From Phycisphaerales bacterium (lineage in GTDB: Bacteria > Planctomycetota > Phycisphaerae > Phycisphaerales > UBA1924): DNA of 41,698 nt. Where the stretch lies: assembly GCA_026647565.1 (NCBI GenBank), contig JAPKGU010000011.1:1-41698 (forward strand). Reading direction: 5' to 3'. A program made the position numbers and the translations under genes. This document shows, one piece after another, positions 27,985-35,627 of this stretch (its first letter is position 1; each line of letters starts with the position of its first letter). The notes under the pieces were generated by a model. That model did not search any database, was not told where the DNA came from, and saw nothing but the letters and a program-made list of their open reading frames with translations.

Positions 27985-29550
27985 TCAGTGCGCGTTCGGG
28001 TGCACAAACCCCTTGAACAGCGTCATCCACAGGATCCGGATGTCAAACCCCAGCGACCAGTGCTTGACGTAGTACAAGTCGTACTGCAGCCGCTTCCGCA
28101 GACTCGTGTCCCCGCGCAGCCCGTTCACCTGCGCCCAACCCGTCATCCCCGCCTTCACGTGTTGGCGAATCATGTAGCCGCGCCAGTTCTCCCTGAACTG
28201 CTCGGCCAGCTCCGGCCGCTCCGGCCGCGGCCCGACGAGCGACATCTCGCCCCGAAGCACGTTGAACAACTGGGGCAGCTCATCCAGCGACGTGCGACGC
28301 AGCCAGCGGCCGACCGGCGTGACGCGAGGATCGGCCCTCTGCGTCCAACCGATCGCCCCCTCGCCCTCGTCCTGCACGTGGTACATCGTGCGGAACTTGT
28401 AGATGCTGAACACCTCTCCCCCAAGGCCCACCCGCCGCTGACGGAAAATCACCGGCCCCGGCGAGCCGAATCGCACCAGCGTCGCGATCAGCAGCATCAA
28501 AGGACCGAACACCACGATGCACGAGAGCGATCCGGCGATATCGATGATCCGCTTCTGCACGCCGCCCAATCCGTGCAGCGGACTCTCGCGATAGCTGAGC
28601 ACAGGCATCCCGTCCAGCTCCGCCACCGCCATGCTCTGCGGCAGGTACCGCGCCTGCACGTCCGGCACGATCCGCACGTCCACCGCGAACTTCTCAAGAC
28701 GCTGCAGCACCCGCGGGATCATCGCCGACCGCGCCGTCGGGATCGCCAGATACACCGCGTCCACCGGATACCGCTCCAGCACCGACTCCAGCTCCGACAT
28801 CCCACCCGCCACCGGACGCTTCGCGCACTCAGGCCTCGACCGCTGATCGTGGTGCGAGATGAAGTACGCCACGTGAAGGCCCGTCCACGAGTTCCTGTCC
28901 AGCGTGCGGCAGACGATCGCCCCCAGCCGCCCGTCGCCGATGATCGCCACGTGACGCAGGTTGAACCCCCGCCGACGCAGCATTCGCAGCAGCAGACGCG
29001 ACAGCGCGCGGTGCACACCCAGCAGCGTCGGCAGCAGCACCGCAAGCGCGAGCAACTGAACGCGTCCCGCGTCCAGCGCACGCCCCGCGATCGTCACCGA
29101 CGCCACGCCCTCACCGATTCGCGCCGGGTCGTGCCCGATCGCCTCGTTCCCCACCGCCCAGAGCACGACGATCATCGCACCGATCGCGCCGACGCTCGCC
29201 TTCCCCGTCTGCACCAACTCGTGCGTCAGCGATCGGTCGCGACGAGGCCGATACAGCCGGCAAGCCCACAGCATCCCGATCGTGATCGGAACCGCGAACA
29301 GGATCAGCGGCTCCTTGAAGTATGACTCCCAGTCCGGCGGGAACTCACTCTTCAGCAGCACGTGACGCACGCCCCATGCGCCCAGGCACGCGCCCGCAAC
29401 CACCGCGGCATCCGCAACGCCGAGCAAGGCCACAAAGAGTTGATGCTGCTGCTTCAGCACGCTCGAACGTTCTCCGGTCCCGCCCCGCAATCCCCTGCCC
29501 GAAATCCTGACGGACGACAACACTTTCGCCCGTCGTCCCGCTCCTGTCAA
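27985..29550 (-). CDS. Undecaprenyl-phosphate sugar-1-phosphate transferase (WcaJ/WbaP type)
   Basis: The 521-residue membrane enzyme starts exopolysaccharide or O-antigen synthesis by loading a sugar phosphate on undecaprenyl phosphate. Four or five N-terminal hydrophobic segments are followed by a Rossmann-like domain (HVAIIGDGRLGAIVCRTLD). The catalytic domain of about 190 residues shows GLGGVQKRIIDIAGSLSCIV, VIFRQRRVGLGGEVFSIYKF, TSLDELPQLFNVLRGEMSLV, GPRPERPEL and HVKAGMTGWAQVNGLRGDTS. The first 30 residues are basic and may indicate a later start. No other polysaccharide gene is adjacent. The sugar is not predictable. Confidence 0.94.
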   Translation of the reverse strand: MTGAGRRAKVLSSVRISGRGLRGGTGERSSVLKQQHQLFVALLGVADAAVVAGACLGAWGVRHVLLKSEFPPDWESYFKEPLILFAVPITIGMLWACRLYRPRRDRSLTHELVQTGKASVGAIGAMIVVLWAVGNEAIGHDPARIGEGVASVTIAGRALDAGRVQLLALAVLLPTLLGVHRALSRLLLRMLRRRGFNLRHVAIIGDGRLGAIVCRTLDRNSWTGLHVAYFISHHDQRSRPECAKRPVAGGMSELESVLERYPVDAVYLAIPTARSAMIPRVLQRLEKFAVDVRIVPDVQARYLPQSMAVAELDGMPVLSYRESPLHGLGGVQKRIIDIAGSLSCIVVFGPLMLLIATLVRFGSPGPVIFRQRRVGLGGEVFSIYKFRTMYHVQDEGEGAIGWTQRADPRVTPVGRWLRRTSLDELPQLFNVLRGEMSLVGPRPERPELAEQFRENWRGYMIRQHVKAGMTGWAQVNGLRGDTSLRKRLQYDLYYVKHWSLGFDIRILWMTLFKGFVHPNAH

Positions 29551-29592: not shown

Positions 29593-30537
29593 TTACGCGG
29601 GCCACGCCGCGCCCGTTCGGGGCGAGCCCTGTTTCAACCCGATCGCACGCATCGCCTCTCGCTCCGCCTCCCCCAGCGTCGAACCGTCCGGCACGACCAC
29701 GCGGATGATCGCGTAAAGATCGCCCTGCTTGCCGGACTCATCCTTCAGTCCCATGCCCCGCAACCTCAGCTTGCGCCCGGAACTCGAACCGGGAGGCACG
29801 GACAGCGCCGCAGATCCGTCGAGCGTCGGCACCCGAACGCTCGCGCCCATCACCGCCTCCGACACGCTGAGCGGCACCTCGATCTTCAGATCAAGATCAC
29901 TCCCCTCCACTCGCTCGAGCAGGCCGTGCGGCTGGACCCGCACCACCAGAACGACAGCAACGTCCGCGCCCGGCGGCTTCACACGCAGCTTGGTCCCGTC
30001 GGCGGTGGCCGGCGGAATCTGGACCTCGAGCGTGCTCGTTCGCTCCGCCCCCGAAGCCCCGTGACGCAGACGAACCGTCTGCGTCCCGCCCTTCGCCGCC
30101 AGCACGAACGGAACCGACACCTCGACCGACTGCTGGCGCTGCGCGCGTCGTCCCCGCTGTCCCCGCGATGAGCCGGCGCCCTCGCTCCCTGGGCTGTACC
30201 TCGAACCGAAGAACGCATCGAACACCGATCCGATCTCGTCCATGTCGAACTCGGAAGCCGGTGTGCCGCCGCTCCAGCGGAACGGCCCCTCTGCCCCAGC
30301 CTGGGAGCGCGAGGCCTGGGGCGCCGCGTGGCCGAATCGGTCGTACTGACCTCGCTTGGCCTCATCGGAGAGCGTCTCGTACGCCTCCTGCACCTCGGCG
30401 AACTTCTTCGCGGCATCCGGCGCCTTGTTCACGTCCGGATGCAGCTCGCGCGCCAACCCGCGATACGCGCGCCGGATCTCATCCGCGCTCGCACCCCGCT
30501 TCAGCCCCAGAACCTCGTAGTAATCCCGTTTGCCCAT
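29593..30537 (-). CDS. DnaJ-family co-chaperone without zinc finger (CbpA-like)
   Basis: The 314-residue protein starts with a J domain ([20 protein letters not shown]) with the HPD motif at residues 34-36, which activates Hsp70 ATPase. A Gly/Ser/Arg-rich segment follows at about 75-140. The C-terminal part has two substrate-binding modules, including [20 protein letters not shown] and [20 protein letters not shown]. No CxxCxGxG zinc repeats are present, so it is a type II DnaJ or CbpA protein. It precedes the sugar transferase gene by 42 bases. Confidence 0.92.
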
Positions 30538-30619
30538 GACGGACGACTCATTCCACGGCTACGACGCCACCCGCCGACGGATTCCTCGCCCACCGCCTCC
30601 AACTCGCCGCGCGCCGTGG

Positions 30620-31699
30620 TCAATGTCCGCCGGAAGCCGCGCCCGGCGTTTCGGGAGCGACGTTCTGTCCCTCAACGCCGCGGATCGACAGGCACTCAAC
30701 GTCAAAGGTCAGACGGGCGTTCGGCGGAATCACTCCGGCCCGACCCTGCGGTCCGTATCCCTGGTCGCTGGGAATCACGATGCGTCGGCGCTCGCCGTTC
30801 TTCAGACCGGACATGCCGATGTTCCAGCCCGGGACCATCTGACCAGGCCACCGGAACGTCAGGGGCTGCGGCCGCTGGCGCGAACTGTCGAAAATGCGAC
30901 CATCATCCAGGAAACCCGTGTACTGCACAGTCGCCAGCTGCCCCGACTGGATCTCCTCGCCCTCGCCCGACTTCAACACGATCGACACGACCCCCTCCGG
31001 CGACCGGGTGACCGAGACCGGCGCCTGAACCTTCGTGAACTCGTACCGATCTCCGGGCGCCGATCCCCATGCGACCGAGCCGTCCGCAGCGATCCCGCGA
31101 TCCACAGACACGAGCGTCGCGGCGTCGATGGAGATCTCGCTCGTCATCTCGACGGCGCCCGACACGCCGGTCGGATACGGATACGGCGTCTTGCCCGCAT
31201 ACCCGTTCCCGGACTTGGCCAGATCAATGTCCAGCGTGGCGATCAGGTCCGAAGCAGGGATCGGCCGGATCAGGTCCGGCGCGAACACCAGCCCGACCAG
31301 CGCGCCCTTGAGCCCCGGTGTGTTGCGGAACTCGTACGTGCGCAGGCGAACCCCGCCCTTGTAGGCGTACAGCGCAAACACCGCCTGCCGGTACGGCTCG
31401 AAGAGCGCGTCCTCTCGGGCCGCCTCCACATAGAGTGTGTTCGGGATGCCGTCGACAGGAGCGGGCACCATCGTCATCATGATCTTGATCGTCCCGGCGC
31501 CGTCTGTCTGCGCAACCTCGGACGACGAAGCCCACGTTCCGGTCAACATCGACGCGATCGACTCGATCTCGGGAGTTGTCCAGGAGGGCGTCCAGACCTG
31601 AACCGCCTCGGCCGCCGCAGGAGCGGACTCCTGCGCCGCCGCCGCAGACCCAAGAAGCCCCAAGACCGCCGCAGCGACCAATGGCGTGCCCATCTTCAT
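30620..31699 (-). CDS. Secreted CpcT/CpeT-like domain fused to FKBP-type peptidyl-prolyl isomerase
   Basis: The 359-residue protein has a signal peptide of about 22 residues. Residues about 44-225 resemble the CpcT/CpeT chromophore lyase fold: IASMLTGTWASSSEVAQ, NTLYVEAAREDALFEPYRQA and VFALYAYKGGVRLRTYEF. Residues 238-340 are an FKBP domain (GQLATVQYTGFLDDGRIFDS, MVPGWNIGMSGLKNGERRRI, SDQGYGPQGRAGVIPPNARL), the class that isomerises peptidyl-proline bonds. AGGAGTG lies 7 bases before the ATG. CpcT-like domains occur outside cyanobacteria with unknown function; a phycobilin role is unlikely here. The isomerase assignment is firm and the fusion is the odd feature. Confidence 0.88.
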   Translation of the reverse strand: MKMGTPLVAAAVLGLLGSAAAAQESAPAAAEAVQVWTPSWTTPEIESIASMLTGTWASSSEVAQTDGAGTIKIMMTMVPAPVDGIPNTLYVEAAREDALFEPYRQAVFALYAYKGGVRLRTYEFRNTPGLKGALVGLVFAPDLIRPIPASDLIATLDIDLAKSGNGYAGKTPYPYPTGVSGAVEMTSEISIDAATLVSVDRGIAADGSVAWGSAPGDRYEFTKVQAPVSVTRSPEGVVSIVLKSGEGEEIQSGQLATVQYTGFLDDGRIFDSSRQRPQPLTFRWPGQMVPGWNIGMSGLKNGERRRIVIPSDQGYGPQGRAGVIPPNARLTFDVECLSIRGVEGQNVAPETPGAASGGH

Positions 31700-31769
31700 G
31701 ATTCACACTCCTGTGCTTCGCTCGCTCACCAGGCGCCCCGAAAGACGCACAAGCCCTCGAACACCGATC

Positions 31770-32750
31770 TCAACCGAGCTCCGGGAACAACTTCACCACG
31801 GCGCCGACGAGGTCCTTCACGTGGCTCACGGACTCGTCCATCAGCTTCTGCTCGTCCGCAGTCAGCTTGAACGTCACGATCCGCTCAACGCCGCCCGAGC
31901 CGAGGAGCGCCGGGACCCCGACAAAGTAGCCCTTGCCCTTCTGGCCCGTCGCGACGCCGAACTCGTTCTCGCAGTACGCCGCCGAAGGGATGATCCGCTT
32001 CTTGTCCTTGATGATCGCCTCGACCATCTGGATCGTGCCGCTCGCCGGCGCGTAGTACGCGCTCGTGCCCATCAGCTTGACGATCTCGCCCCCGCCGACC
32101 TTCGCACGCTCGACGCACGCGTTGATCTTCTCCGGCGCCATCAGGTCCGTCAGCGGAATGCCGCTCACGCTCGTGAGCCGGGGCAGAGGCACCATGTCAT
32201 CACCGTGCCCGCCGAGCAGCAGGGCCGAGATGTCCTCAACGCTCACGCCCAACTCCATCGCGATGAACTCGCGGAACCGCGCAACGTCCAGAGCGCCCGC
32301 CTGCCCCATGATCCGGTTCGTCGGGAAGCCCGTCGTCTTCCACGCCGTGTACACCATCGCATCCAGCGGATTCGCCACCACAATCACGATCGAATCCGGC
32401 GCAAACTCCTTCACCTTCTCGCTTACGCTCTTCACGATCGGCACGTTCACCGCCAGCAGATCGTCGCGGCTCATCCCCGGCTTCCGAGGCAGCCCCGCCG
32501 TGATCACAACCACGTCCGAGCCCGCGATGTCCTTGTAATCGAACGTGCCCATGATCCGCGTGTCGAATCGCTCAATCGGCGCACAGCACGCAAGGTCCAG
32601 CGCCTTCCCCTTCGGCATGTGCTGCTCGGGCTTGTCCTTGTTCGGGATGTCCAGGAGGACAATGTCCCCAAGCTCCTTCGCCGCCGCCCAGTGCGCACAG
32701 GTCGCCCCGACATTGCCCGCTCCGATGATGCTGATCTTTGCCCGACGCAT
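31770..32750 (-). CDS. mdh: Malate dehydrogenase (LDH-like family)
   Basis: The enzyme interconverts malate and oxaloacetate with NAD in the TCA cycle. The 326-residue protein shows the NAD loop SIIGAGNVGATCAHW (10-15), the substrate loop GLPRKPGMSRDDLL (86-99) whose arginines select malate over lactate, VVANPLDAM, the DVARFR aspartate and catalytic His182 in GGHGDDMV. Asp at the end of the second strand (LLDI) fits NAD specificity. The gene diverges from a PEP-CTERM-type gene across 281 bases rich in palindromes. It is followed by the FKBP fusion gene after 70 bases. Confidence 0.96.
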   Translation of the reverse strand: MRRAKISIIGAGNVGATCAHWAAAKELGDIVLLDIPNKDKPEQHMPKGKALDLACCAPIERFDTRIMGTFDYKDIAGSDVVVITAGLPRKPGMSRDDLLAVNVPIVKSVSEKVKEFAPDSIVIVVANPLDAMVYTAWKTTGFPTNRIMGQAGALDVARFREFIAMELGVSVEDISALLLGGHGDDMVPLPRLTSVSGIPLTDLMAPEKINACVERAKVGGGEIVKLMGTSAYYAPASGTIQMVEAIIKDKKRIIPSAAYCENEFGVATGQKGKGYFVGVPALLGSGGVERIVTFKLTADEQKLMDESVSHVKDLVGAVVKLFPELG

Positions 32751-32783
32751 GTGCGTAAGTCCTTGTCAATACATTGGTTAAAA

Positions 32784-32813
32784 CGATATCGCTCGCGAGA
32801 AACATCCCGCGGG
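32784..32813. promoter_or_regulatory. Three 8-base palindromes between mdh and the PEP-CTERM gene
   Basis: CGATATCG (32784-32791), CTCGCGAG (32792-32799) and CCCGCGGG (32806-32813) are perfect palindromes within 30 bases, 34 bases upstream of the mdh start. They may be operators or a structured leader of mdh. Confidence 0.35.
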
Positions 32814-32955
32814 TCGCAATGATAGGCCGCACGCACGCACCCTCTCAATCCTCAGGTTTCATTGACGGAAGCAAGACATGCACCTCAAAGCGACATCAGA
32901 CAATGTCCCGTGAAGCCCGCTCTGGCGGCTTCGGATTGGCGTACCGCCCTACACA

Positions 32956-33001
32956 TACTTCCTTGCATCGCCCGTGTGTACTTCCTTGCATCGCCCGTGT
33001 G
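32956..33001 (+). repeat. Perfect tandem duplication of 23 bases
   Basis: Two identical adjacent copies (32956-32978 and 32979-33001), beginning TACTTCCTTGCATCG and ending CCGTGTG, lie 30 bases before the PEP-CTERM start codon. They probably sit in the leader or promoter of that gene. Confidence 0.92.
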
Positions 33002-33031
33002 CGAGCGGGTTCAGTAAAGAGGAGACAAGCA

Positions 33032-33829
33032 ATGAAGAGAGTCATGTCCATCGCAGCCGCCGCGGCCCTTTTCGCCGGTGCCGCCGCCGCAAACCCCGTG
33101 TTCCTCGCGACTTCCGGTTCAACGCTCTTCCGCGCCTCCTCCGGAGGTGGCGTCGCAACGTTCGCCCTCTCCGACGACTTGGTCTCCATGTTCCGCATGC
33201 CCAACGGCGAAATCTGGGGCGTCAGCGCGACAACCAGCGTGAACGGCACCTATGAGATCTATCGCCTCGACGGCGCCCTCTCCGCTGCCCCCTCCCTCAC
33301 GCTCCTCCACGATGGCTTCCAGGCAACCTACCCCGGCATGACCTACGCCAATGGGTTCCTCTACGGCTTCGCCGACGGCTCGCAGCATCTCGATCGAATC
33401 GACCCCGGAACCTTCGCCGTCTCGAGCGTCGGCCCCACCGGTACCTTCAGCAACGGCGCCGCCGCGCACGACGCCGCAACCGACACCTTCTACGGCATGA
33501 GCAGCAACACCAACGCCCTCTACACAATCGACTACGCACTCTCCGGCGGCCCAACCCCCGCCGGCACGCTCGTCGGTGCGCTCGGATTCGACTTCCAGAA
33601 TCACGACGCCGACTTTGTCGGCGGCATCCTCTACACCGCCGTGCAGCGGAACGACAACGGCGCCTTCGAAGTTGGCACGATCAGCACCATCGACGGCTCC
33701 TACTCCTTCCTGATGACCCTTGAGAACCTCTACACGCCCGGCGTCGTCGGCATGGTCGTCGTCCCCACGCCCTCCACGATCGCGTCGATCGCGCTCGCCG
33801 GACTGCTCGTCGCTCGTCGCCGTCGCTGA
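33032..33829 (+). CDS. Secreted protein with PEP-CTERM-like sorting tail
   Basis: The 265-residue protein has a signal peptide (MKRVMSIAAAAALFAGAAAA). The body has repeating beta-like segments such as TYPGMTYANGFLYGFADGSQ and AAAHDAATDTFYGMSSNTN, reminiscent of a beta-propeller. The C-terminus, VVPTPSTIASIALAGLLVAR followed by RRR, has the proline motif, hydrophobic helix and arginine end of PEP-CTERM tails, with PTP instead of PEP. Such tails are processed by exosortase during export; no exosortase gene is in this window. AGGAG lies 7 bases before the ATG at 33032. A strong terminator follows. Confidence 0.85.
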   Translation: MKRVMSIAAAAALFAGAAAANPVFLATSGSTLFRASSGGGVATFALSDDLVSMFRMPNGEIWGVSATTSVNGTYEIYRLDGALSAAPSLTLLHDGFQATYPGMTYANGFLYGFADGSQHLDRIDPGTFAVSSVGPTGTFSNGAAAHDAATDTFYGMSSNTNALYTIDYALSGGPTPAGTLVGALGFDFQNHDADFVGGILYTAVQRNDNGAFEVGTISTIDGSYSFLMTLENLYTPGVVGMVVVPTPSTIASIALAGLLVARRRR

Positions 33830-34763: not shown

Positions 34764-35447
34764 TTACGCGCGCCGACGACGAGCCGCCAGGCCCGCGACG
34801 CCGAGCAGCGCCAAGGCGCCGGGAGCCGGGATGATCTGACCGTCCGCAGAGACAGTCTGGTTGTTGAAGTTGTTGGTGAAGAAGCCGCCAGTGAAGCGGA
34901 TATACAGCTGGCTGAACGCGCCGGTGTAGGGCGGATCGCCAGGCAGGTCCATGTCGAAGGAGCCGCTGATGCCGTCGAACGTGCCATCGGCCGCGCCGTT
35001 GTCGTTGAAGAAGACGTTGCTGAGCAGACCGCTGTAGAACACCACACCGCCGCCAGGAGACTGCCAGATGCCGCCGATGTCCGCGGTCAGCGTGTCGCCA
35101 TCAACGTCGGTCAGCACAACCGTGCCCGCGCCCGTTGCCTCGCCCACGCCGGTCACCGTCACCGAAAGCGTGATCAGCACGTCGGCGAACGTACCCAGAT
35201 CCATGAACCCGGTATCGAACTGTGCAGTCCCGCCGGGAGCCGCAAGGCGAGTCACGTCGCCGCCGGTGTTCAGCACGCCGCCGTCGGCGCGAGCCGTGAA
35301 CGTGCCGGTCGTCGCGCTGGACTTCACGTACCGACCGTTCAGATCGGTGTAGCCGAATGTGGCGATGACGTCTGCCGTCGCCGACCCAGCCGCGATTGCA
35401 AGCGCAACCACAGCCCCTCCCATCACGCGGGCCGAAACAAATGCCAT
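34764..35447 (-). CDS. Secreted protein with PEP-CTERM-like sorting tail, second
   Basis: The 227-residue protein has a signal peptide (MAFVSARVMGGAVVALAIAA, cleaved near SATA), a beta-rich body (LNGRYVKSSATTGTFTARAD; VLITLSVTVTGVGEATGAGT) and the C-terminal IPAPGALALLGVAGLAARRR. That tail fits the PEP-CTERM form, with PAP in place of PEP. No catalytic motif is visible; the body is like that of many cell-surface PEP-CTERM proteins. The ATG at 35447 follows GGAG at good distance on the minus strand. A (CT)n run at 35478-35492 lies in its leader. Confidence 0.86.
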   Translation of the reverse strand: MAFVSARVMGGAVVALAIAAGSATADVIATFGYTDLNGRYVKSSATTGTFTARADGGVLNTGGDVTRLAAPGGTAQFDTGFMDLGTFADVLITLSVTVTGVGEATGAGTVVLTDVDGDTLTADIGGIWQSPGGGVVFYSGLLSNVFFNDNGAADGTFDGISGSFDMDLPGDPPYTGAFSQLYIRFTGGFFTNNFNNQTVSADGQIIPAPGALALLGVAGLAARRRRA

Positions 35448-35627
35448 GTCTCTTCTCCTCGATTCCACGGAATCTGCTCTTCTCTCTCTCTCCAACGTCG
35501 CATGAAGTGGGGGTCACACACCCCGAGGAAGCCCTCGATGCGCCGGTCTCTCTGGAATGAAGTATGTCGAAACGGCAACCCAAAAGCGAGGGTCATCACT
35601 CAAATTGTGCAGAAATATCGGCCCGCC

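Follow-up and report, generated by a model that had tools for sequence, protein, structure and literature searches.

The fusion gene and its conserved locus

The window, by which we mean the whole 41,698-nucleotide stretch of Phycisphaerales DNA analysed here, contains a minus-strand open reading frame at positions 30620-31699 with an ATG start and a translation of 359 amino acids. In this protein a CpcT/CpeT-like barrel is fused to an FKBP prolyl isomerase domain behind a putative export signal, and three conserved genes lie next to it on the same strand:

27985..29550, minus strand: bacterial sugar transferase, the further downstream conserved neighbour (Pfam; synteny)
29593..30537, minus strand: DnaJ-type co-chaperone with J domain and DnaJ_C, cytosolic as judged by sequence, the downstream conserved neighbour (Pfam; synteny)
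30620..31699, minus strand: whole fusion gene, 359 aa (ORF, translation, Pfam)
30695..30958, minus strand: FKBP prolyl isomerase domain, residues 248-335 (PF00254; model match to 4dz3)
31031..31558, minus strand: CpcT/CpeT-like barrel, residues 48-223 (PF06206; AlphaFold2 model; VIA-align to CpcT and CRL)
31634..31699, minus strand: putative signal peptide, residues 1-22, cleavage guessed between AAA and Q (sequence reading)
31770..32750, minus strand: lactate/malate dehydrogenase family protein, the upstream conserved neighbour (Pfam; synteny)

A first-pass annotation of this DNA had proposed a CpcT/CpeT-like N-terminal domain, a C-terminal FKBP domain and a signal peptide. Pfam searches confirmed both domains: the barrel matched CpeT (PF06206) with an E value of 2e-18 and 67.4 bits (cut-off 21) over profile positions 2-181 of 181, residues 248-335 matched FKBP_C (PF00254) with an E value of 3.4e-25, above the curated cut-off, and no further family appeared on the protein at E values up to 1. 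Six NCBIfam models also matched, each on the FKBP part and each below its own cut-off. The N-terminus, MKMGTPLVAAAVLGLLGSAAAA followed by Q23, looks signal-peptide-like by eye, with AAA immediately before Q23, and a crude test (methionine, a hydrophobic stretch and a small-residue cleavage motif) recognised such a start in 33 of the 34 distinct fusion proteins, in agreement with the proposed export signal.

We ruled out a chance reading frame or a chimeric contig because the same fusion, with the same neighbours, is conserved across many separately assembled genomes. An opposite-strand frame of 446 aa (30530-31870, plus strand) was taken to be a shadow ORF of the GC-rich gene.

The usual gene order is malate dehydrogenase, fusion gene, dnaJ and sugar transferase, and gaps of 70 and 82 bases flank the fusion gene in the window. 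Malate dehydrogenase and/or DnaJ adjoined the fusion at 13 of 13 loci, often with the sugar transferase next. Among the 30 best-scoring of at least 98 loci, inspected with 1.5 kb flanks (9 of the 30 overlapped with loci fetched before), DnaJ was found at 26, the sugar transferase at 25, malate dehydrogenase at 18, and either DnaJ or malate dehydrogenase at all 30. The neighbouring DnaJ (29593-30537) has J and DnaJ_C domains and no zinc-finger match in Pfam; CbpA-type proteins likewise have no DnaJ zinc finger. This neighbourhood hints at a role in folding and proves nothing, because the malate dehydrogenase and sugar transferase have housekeeping or surface functions and the DnaJ is predicted to be cytosolic. 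Elsewhere in the window, the frames at 32774-33829 (plus strand) and 34764-35495 (minus strand) were seen by eye to have PEP-CTERM-like tails, consisting of a proline, a hydrophobic stretch and an arginine run.

Fold, residues and descent of the barrel

AlphaFold2, run on the window protein together with six relatives, produced a model of mean pLDDT 84.1, in which residues 228-339 match 4dz3 at Z 18.5 (rmsd 1.4, 44% identity). When the full model was submitted to Foldseek, FKBP chains alone occupied the top 50 matches, and for this reason the barrel was modelled and searched on its own. The barrel alone was modelled at a pLDDT of 92.1 as a lipocalin-like barrel, and its closest structures were CpcT 4o4s (Z 20.0, rmsd 3.0, 175 residues aligned, 18% identity), CRUMPLED LEAF (CRL) of Arabidopsis 6lix (Z 19.9, rmsd 3.0, 176 residues, 21% identity), CpcT 4o4o (Z 19.8) and cyanophage CpeT 5hi8 (Z 14.4). 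Profile search and structure prediction thus both place the N-terminal domain in the lyase family, as first proposed. The next match below this group scored Z 10.8; nitrobindins and a haemophore made up the next tier (Z about 10), and fatty-acid and bile-acid binders followed at Z about 7. The best BFVD matches were cyanophage chromophore lyase and antenna proteins. Nitrobindin-like heme binding, a candidate from the fold list, was set low, as no histidine occurs in the columns that are at least 80% conserved among 34 fused proteins.

A profile of seven barrels searched against the PDB found CRL with an E value of 1.6e-7 and CpcT with 0.0022, so by sequence the barrel scores closer to the plant protein than to CpcT, both being distant. 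CRL (6lix, 6liy), a chloroplast envelope protein, is therefore the best solved relative of the barrel by sequence profile. Like the fused barrels, it has neither of the two family cysteines, has a proline within the 172-177 loop and belongs to an organism without phycobilisomes; unlike them, it has no FKBP domain and keeps Q93, R106 and Y184.

To compare residues across the family, the 34 fused barrels were aligned with 27 unfused planctomycete CpeT domains and later with three cyanophage CpeT proteins, using window numbering; the residue assignments below are those of this alignment, in which loops may shift by a residue or two at such distances. Two cysteines, in columns L156 and Y175 of the window protein, are present in 27/27 unfused domains, 3/3 cyanophage proteins and CpcT (1/1), and Y184 and Q93 are each present in 26/27, 3/3 and 1/1 of the same groups. 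In the fused barrels, by contrast, column 156 is L or M (31/34), column 175 is Y or F (33/34), position 184 is E (33/34) and position 93 is variable, with Q in only 4/34. At position 106, the unfused domains (27/27), CpcT and CRL have R, the cyanophage proteins have F, and 31/34 fused barrels have A or S. By this alignment, the fused barrels have lost C156, C175, Y184 and Q93, which are common to unfused planctomycete CpeT, CpcT and cyanophage CpeT.

Other positions are conserved among the fused barrels, namely E92, R120, D157, P176 and T177 (each 34/34), R118 (33/34) and E123 (31/34), and most fused members retain the D-R-G and W-G motifs. Cyanophage CpeT likewise has E92, R118, K at 120, E or D at 123, and D157, so not all of these residues are particular to the fused barrels, which have given up some family positions and retained others. 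With the CpcT/CpeT lyases, the fusion shares E92, P102, R104, D200, R201, G202, W211 and G212. Across the 34 proteins, mean pairwise identity was 0.449 for the barrel against 0.413 for the FKBP domain, with 9 and 5 invariant columns, respectively. The barrel is thus constrained no less than the FKBP domain and is no mere linker, and the similar conservation of the two parts argues that the barrel probably has some specific role.

A tree was built from the 34 fused barrels (45 fused ORFs less 11 duplicates), the 27 unfused planctomycete domains, CRL and CpcT. A single branch separated the fused barrels from the rest (support 100/99, present in 100% of bootstrap trees), on a long stem of 1.27 changes per column; the positions of the long rows CRL, CpcT and L037 are unsure. 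The simplest history would be a single fusion event, after which the gene was inherited within f1, the family to which the window belongs. The unfused planctomycete proteins, which belong to the same Pfam family and phylum, thus differ from the fusion in this split and in the residues above as well as in having no FKBP domain. Two CpeT loci from the phylum-wide survey that lay beyond the reach of the fused profile (L036, L042) were excluded from the 27 unfused rows, and neither has an FKBP match. The barrels of genus g2 (L038-L041, L055, L075) lie on a long branch.

Spread of the fusion and the gene content of its hosts

Searching GTDB species genomes with short barrel peptides gave 6 loci; each lies in a Phycisphaerales MAG and is fused to FKBP. 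In the survey of planctomycetes suggested in the first-pass annotation, 35 of 392 sampled genomes of the phylum had a CpeT match, at 36 places, and the 7 fused places, all in family f1, were the window's own and those in G384, G325 (its second copy), G002, G034, G095 and G172. A profile built from 13 fusion proteins was next searched against 301 Phycisphaerales genomes, and matches that start before profile position 110 and end after 300 were counted as full-length. Full-length homologues were present in at least 98 of 118 sampled f1 genomes, a lower bound since matches were listed down to about E 3e-31, and in 0 of 183 genomes of other families among the matches listed, where the FKBP part alone matched. 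Protein cores from three genomes were identical to those of Phycisphaerales MAGs, which places f1 within that order. No match came from plasmid records.

For the other 20 of the 118 f1 genomes, no full-length fusion was among the matches listed, and in three of these 20 malate dehydrogenase and dnaJ adjoin without the fusion, with gaps of 55 bases in G501 (L083, L097), 55 in G649 (L082) and about 445 in G567 (L081, L098). At these empty sites the gene was either lost or never present, which indicates that the fusion is not essential throughout the family. Six further genomes (G414, G278, G270, G319, G627, G408) have more diverged barrel-FKBP proteins off the usual locus, in which the barrel was assigned from matches to the fusion alone. 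In G325 an unfused CpeT occurs alongside a fused copy that has diverged strongly (L026, L037).

A literature search on CpeT/CpcT with FKBP or planctomycetes did not find the fusion in titles or abstract starts, a coverage mostly outside subscription papers. Where it lists DUF1001 homologues, one earlier study names cyanobacteria, a cryptophyte, a red alga, plants and a cyanophage, and none in planctomycetes (PMC2408579).

The host had been presumed not to use phycobilisomes, and its gene content agrees: phycobilisome proteins (PF00502) were matched neither in the window's own genome (0 matches; 89% complete) nor in the 13 fusion genomes searched (0/13). The ferredoxin-dependent (Fe-dependent) bilin reductase (PF05996) and the PHY domain of phytochromes were likewise matched in 0/13 genomes, while at least one control genome matched in each search, the one for heme oxygenase included. 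Heme oxygenase was present in 11/13 and gave no match in G172 and G325, which are 98% and 97% complete, so biliverdin is likely to be available in most fusion genomes, although apparently not all. The fusion shares a homologous domain and a predicted fold with the T-type lyases CpcT and CpeT (PF06206; 4o4o, 4o4s, 5hi8); unlike them, it appears to be exported, is joined to FKBP, has both conserved cysteines, Y184 and Q93 replaced, and occurs in genomes where no phycobiliprotein or bilin reductase was matched. Because shared residues are lost and phycobilisome, bilin reductase and phytochrome genes are unmatched, the fusion is not a phycobilin lyase in the ordinary sense.

The FKBP active site was compared in FKBP12 numbering, which we take to define the site. 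The window protein keeps Y26, F36, D37, R42, W59, Y82, I91 and F99, changes F46 to L, V55 to M and I56 to V, and has E54, H87 and I90 replaced. Across the 34 fusion proteins, Y26, F36 and F99 are each kept in 33, D37 in 31, Y82 in 30, I56 in 27 (V in the other 7) and W59 in 25, and the equivalents of F46, E54 and H87 are variable. W59 or Y82 is absent in 9/34, including all six genus g2 members in the set (L038-L041, L055, L075). Isomerase activity is therefore likely in most members and doubtful in some; the FKBP domains of certain lineages may be binders with little catalytic power.

Possible roles of the fused barrel

The first-pass annotation had suggested another ligand, or a nascent exported protein, as the binding partner of the barrel. 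This is still the leading inference, although not proven, and it is strengthened by the loss of shared CpeT residues in the fused barrels, by the lack of bilin reductases and phycobiliproteins in their genomes, and by a degree of conservation in the barrel that equals that of the FKBP domain. The loss of residues common to pigment-handling relatives suggests an old pigment barrel put to new use. The explanation that we favour, at roughly an even chance, is an exported foldase whose barrel holds a client protein or hydrophobic ligand beside the prolyl isomerase. The signal peptide would direct passage through the inner membrane, the lipocalin-like barrel of CpcT/CpeT descent would hold exposed client stretches or a hydrophobic ligand, and the tethered FKBP domain would isomerise X-Pro bonds. 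CpcT forms dimers, and the fused barrel may dimerise in the same way.

Foldases of the FkpA/Mip type have a comparable layout, with export, an extra N-terminal domain and a C-terminal FKBP domain, and the FkpA structure 1q6u matched over the FKBP part of the fusion. In FkpA/Mip the N-terminal domain is non-catalytic and serves both for dimerisation and for holding clients next to the FKBP domain. That domain is helical (PF01346, presumably the N-terminal dimerisation domain of FkpA/Mip) and had no Pfam match in the fusion protein, which has the unrelated CpeT barrel instead. More tentatively, and with confidence somewhat short of even, we propose a single recruitment event, in one Phycisphaerales family, by which a bilin-lyase-type barrel became the part of an exported prolyl isomerase that holds the client or ligand. 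This would give a class of envelope foldase with a calyx barrel in place of the helical dimerisation domain of FkpA/Mip and, in part of the group, a His-rich, possibly metal-binding tail.

The main rival to the foldase is a biliverdin ligand. The barrel would then act outside the cytosol as a tetrapyrrole carrier that binds biliverdin, or a different product of heme breakdown, for delivery, protection or sensing; the role of the FKBP domain would be only to aid folding of the carrier or its partner. We regard this as rather unlikely, although the barrel's closest folds are the bilin-binding CpcT (4o4s was solved with PCB) and CRL, with nitrobindins and the haemophore next. The heme oxygenase genes of most fusion genomes would supply such a ligand, but the two near-complete genomes with no match would not, and neither bilin reductase nor phytochrome was matched. 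At the conserved positions E92, R104, R118, E123 and D157, cyanophage CpeT has similar residues, against which stand the loss of the cysteine pair, Y184 and Q93 and the lack of a well-conserved histidine, which leaves no usual heme ligand. The least likely rival is a chromophore lyase proper that joins a bilin to a cysteine of an exported biliprotein while FKBP opens the acceptor. Membership of the CpcT/CpeT family by Pfam and fold and the D-R-G and W-G motifs speak for it, but we find it highly improbable given the three pigment-gene families at 0/13 genomes, the replacement of residues common to known and cyanophage members, and a protein that appears to be exported. Bilins are made in the cytosol.

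Finally, the fusion could be a binding scaffold rather than a foldase, with FKBP as a docking module and a barrel whose cargo or substrate would be a lipid, a cofactor or a sugar intermediate of the cell envelope. The degenerate FKBP sites of some lineages would fit such a role, but the site is kept in most members; similarly, the sugar transferase is within reach in 25 of the best-scoring 30 of at least 98 loci, yet such enzymes act at the cytosolic face of the membrane and the fusion reads as exported. Even though lipocalin-like folds often hold lipids, and fatty-acid and bile-acid binders are in the fold list, we think this explanation improbable.

CpeT-like proteins exist in phycobilisome-free bacteria and plants, of which CRL is the best known; the fusion ties this family to a domain of known chemistry. 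Its conserved locus, its presence in many genomes and its sharp residue changes relative to unfused proteins offer a handle for comparing bilin and client binding. If the foldase explanation is true, planctomycetes, a group with unusual envelope biology, would gain a further design of exported foldase.

Some fused proteins end in His-rich tails (GHNHD, GHDHD and alike), including those at L062 1474-2601, L073 1471-2565 and L035 1060-2163. At least three His lie within the last 25 residues in 15/34 fused proteins and at least four in 9/34, while the window protein has one final His only. These tails are reminiscent of the metal-binding tail of SlyD.
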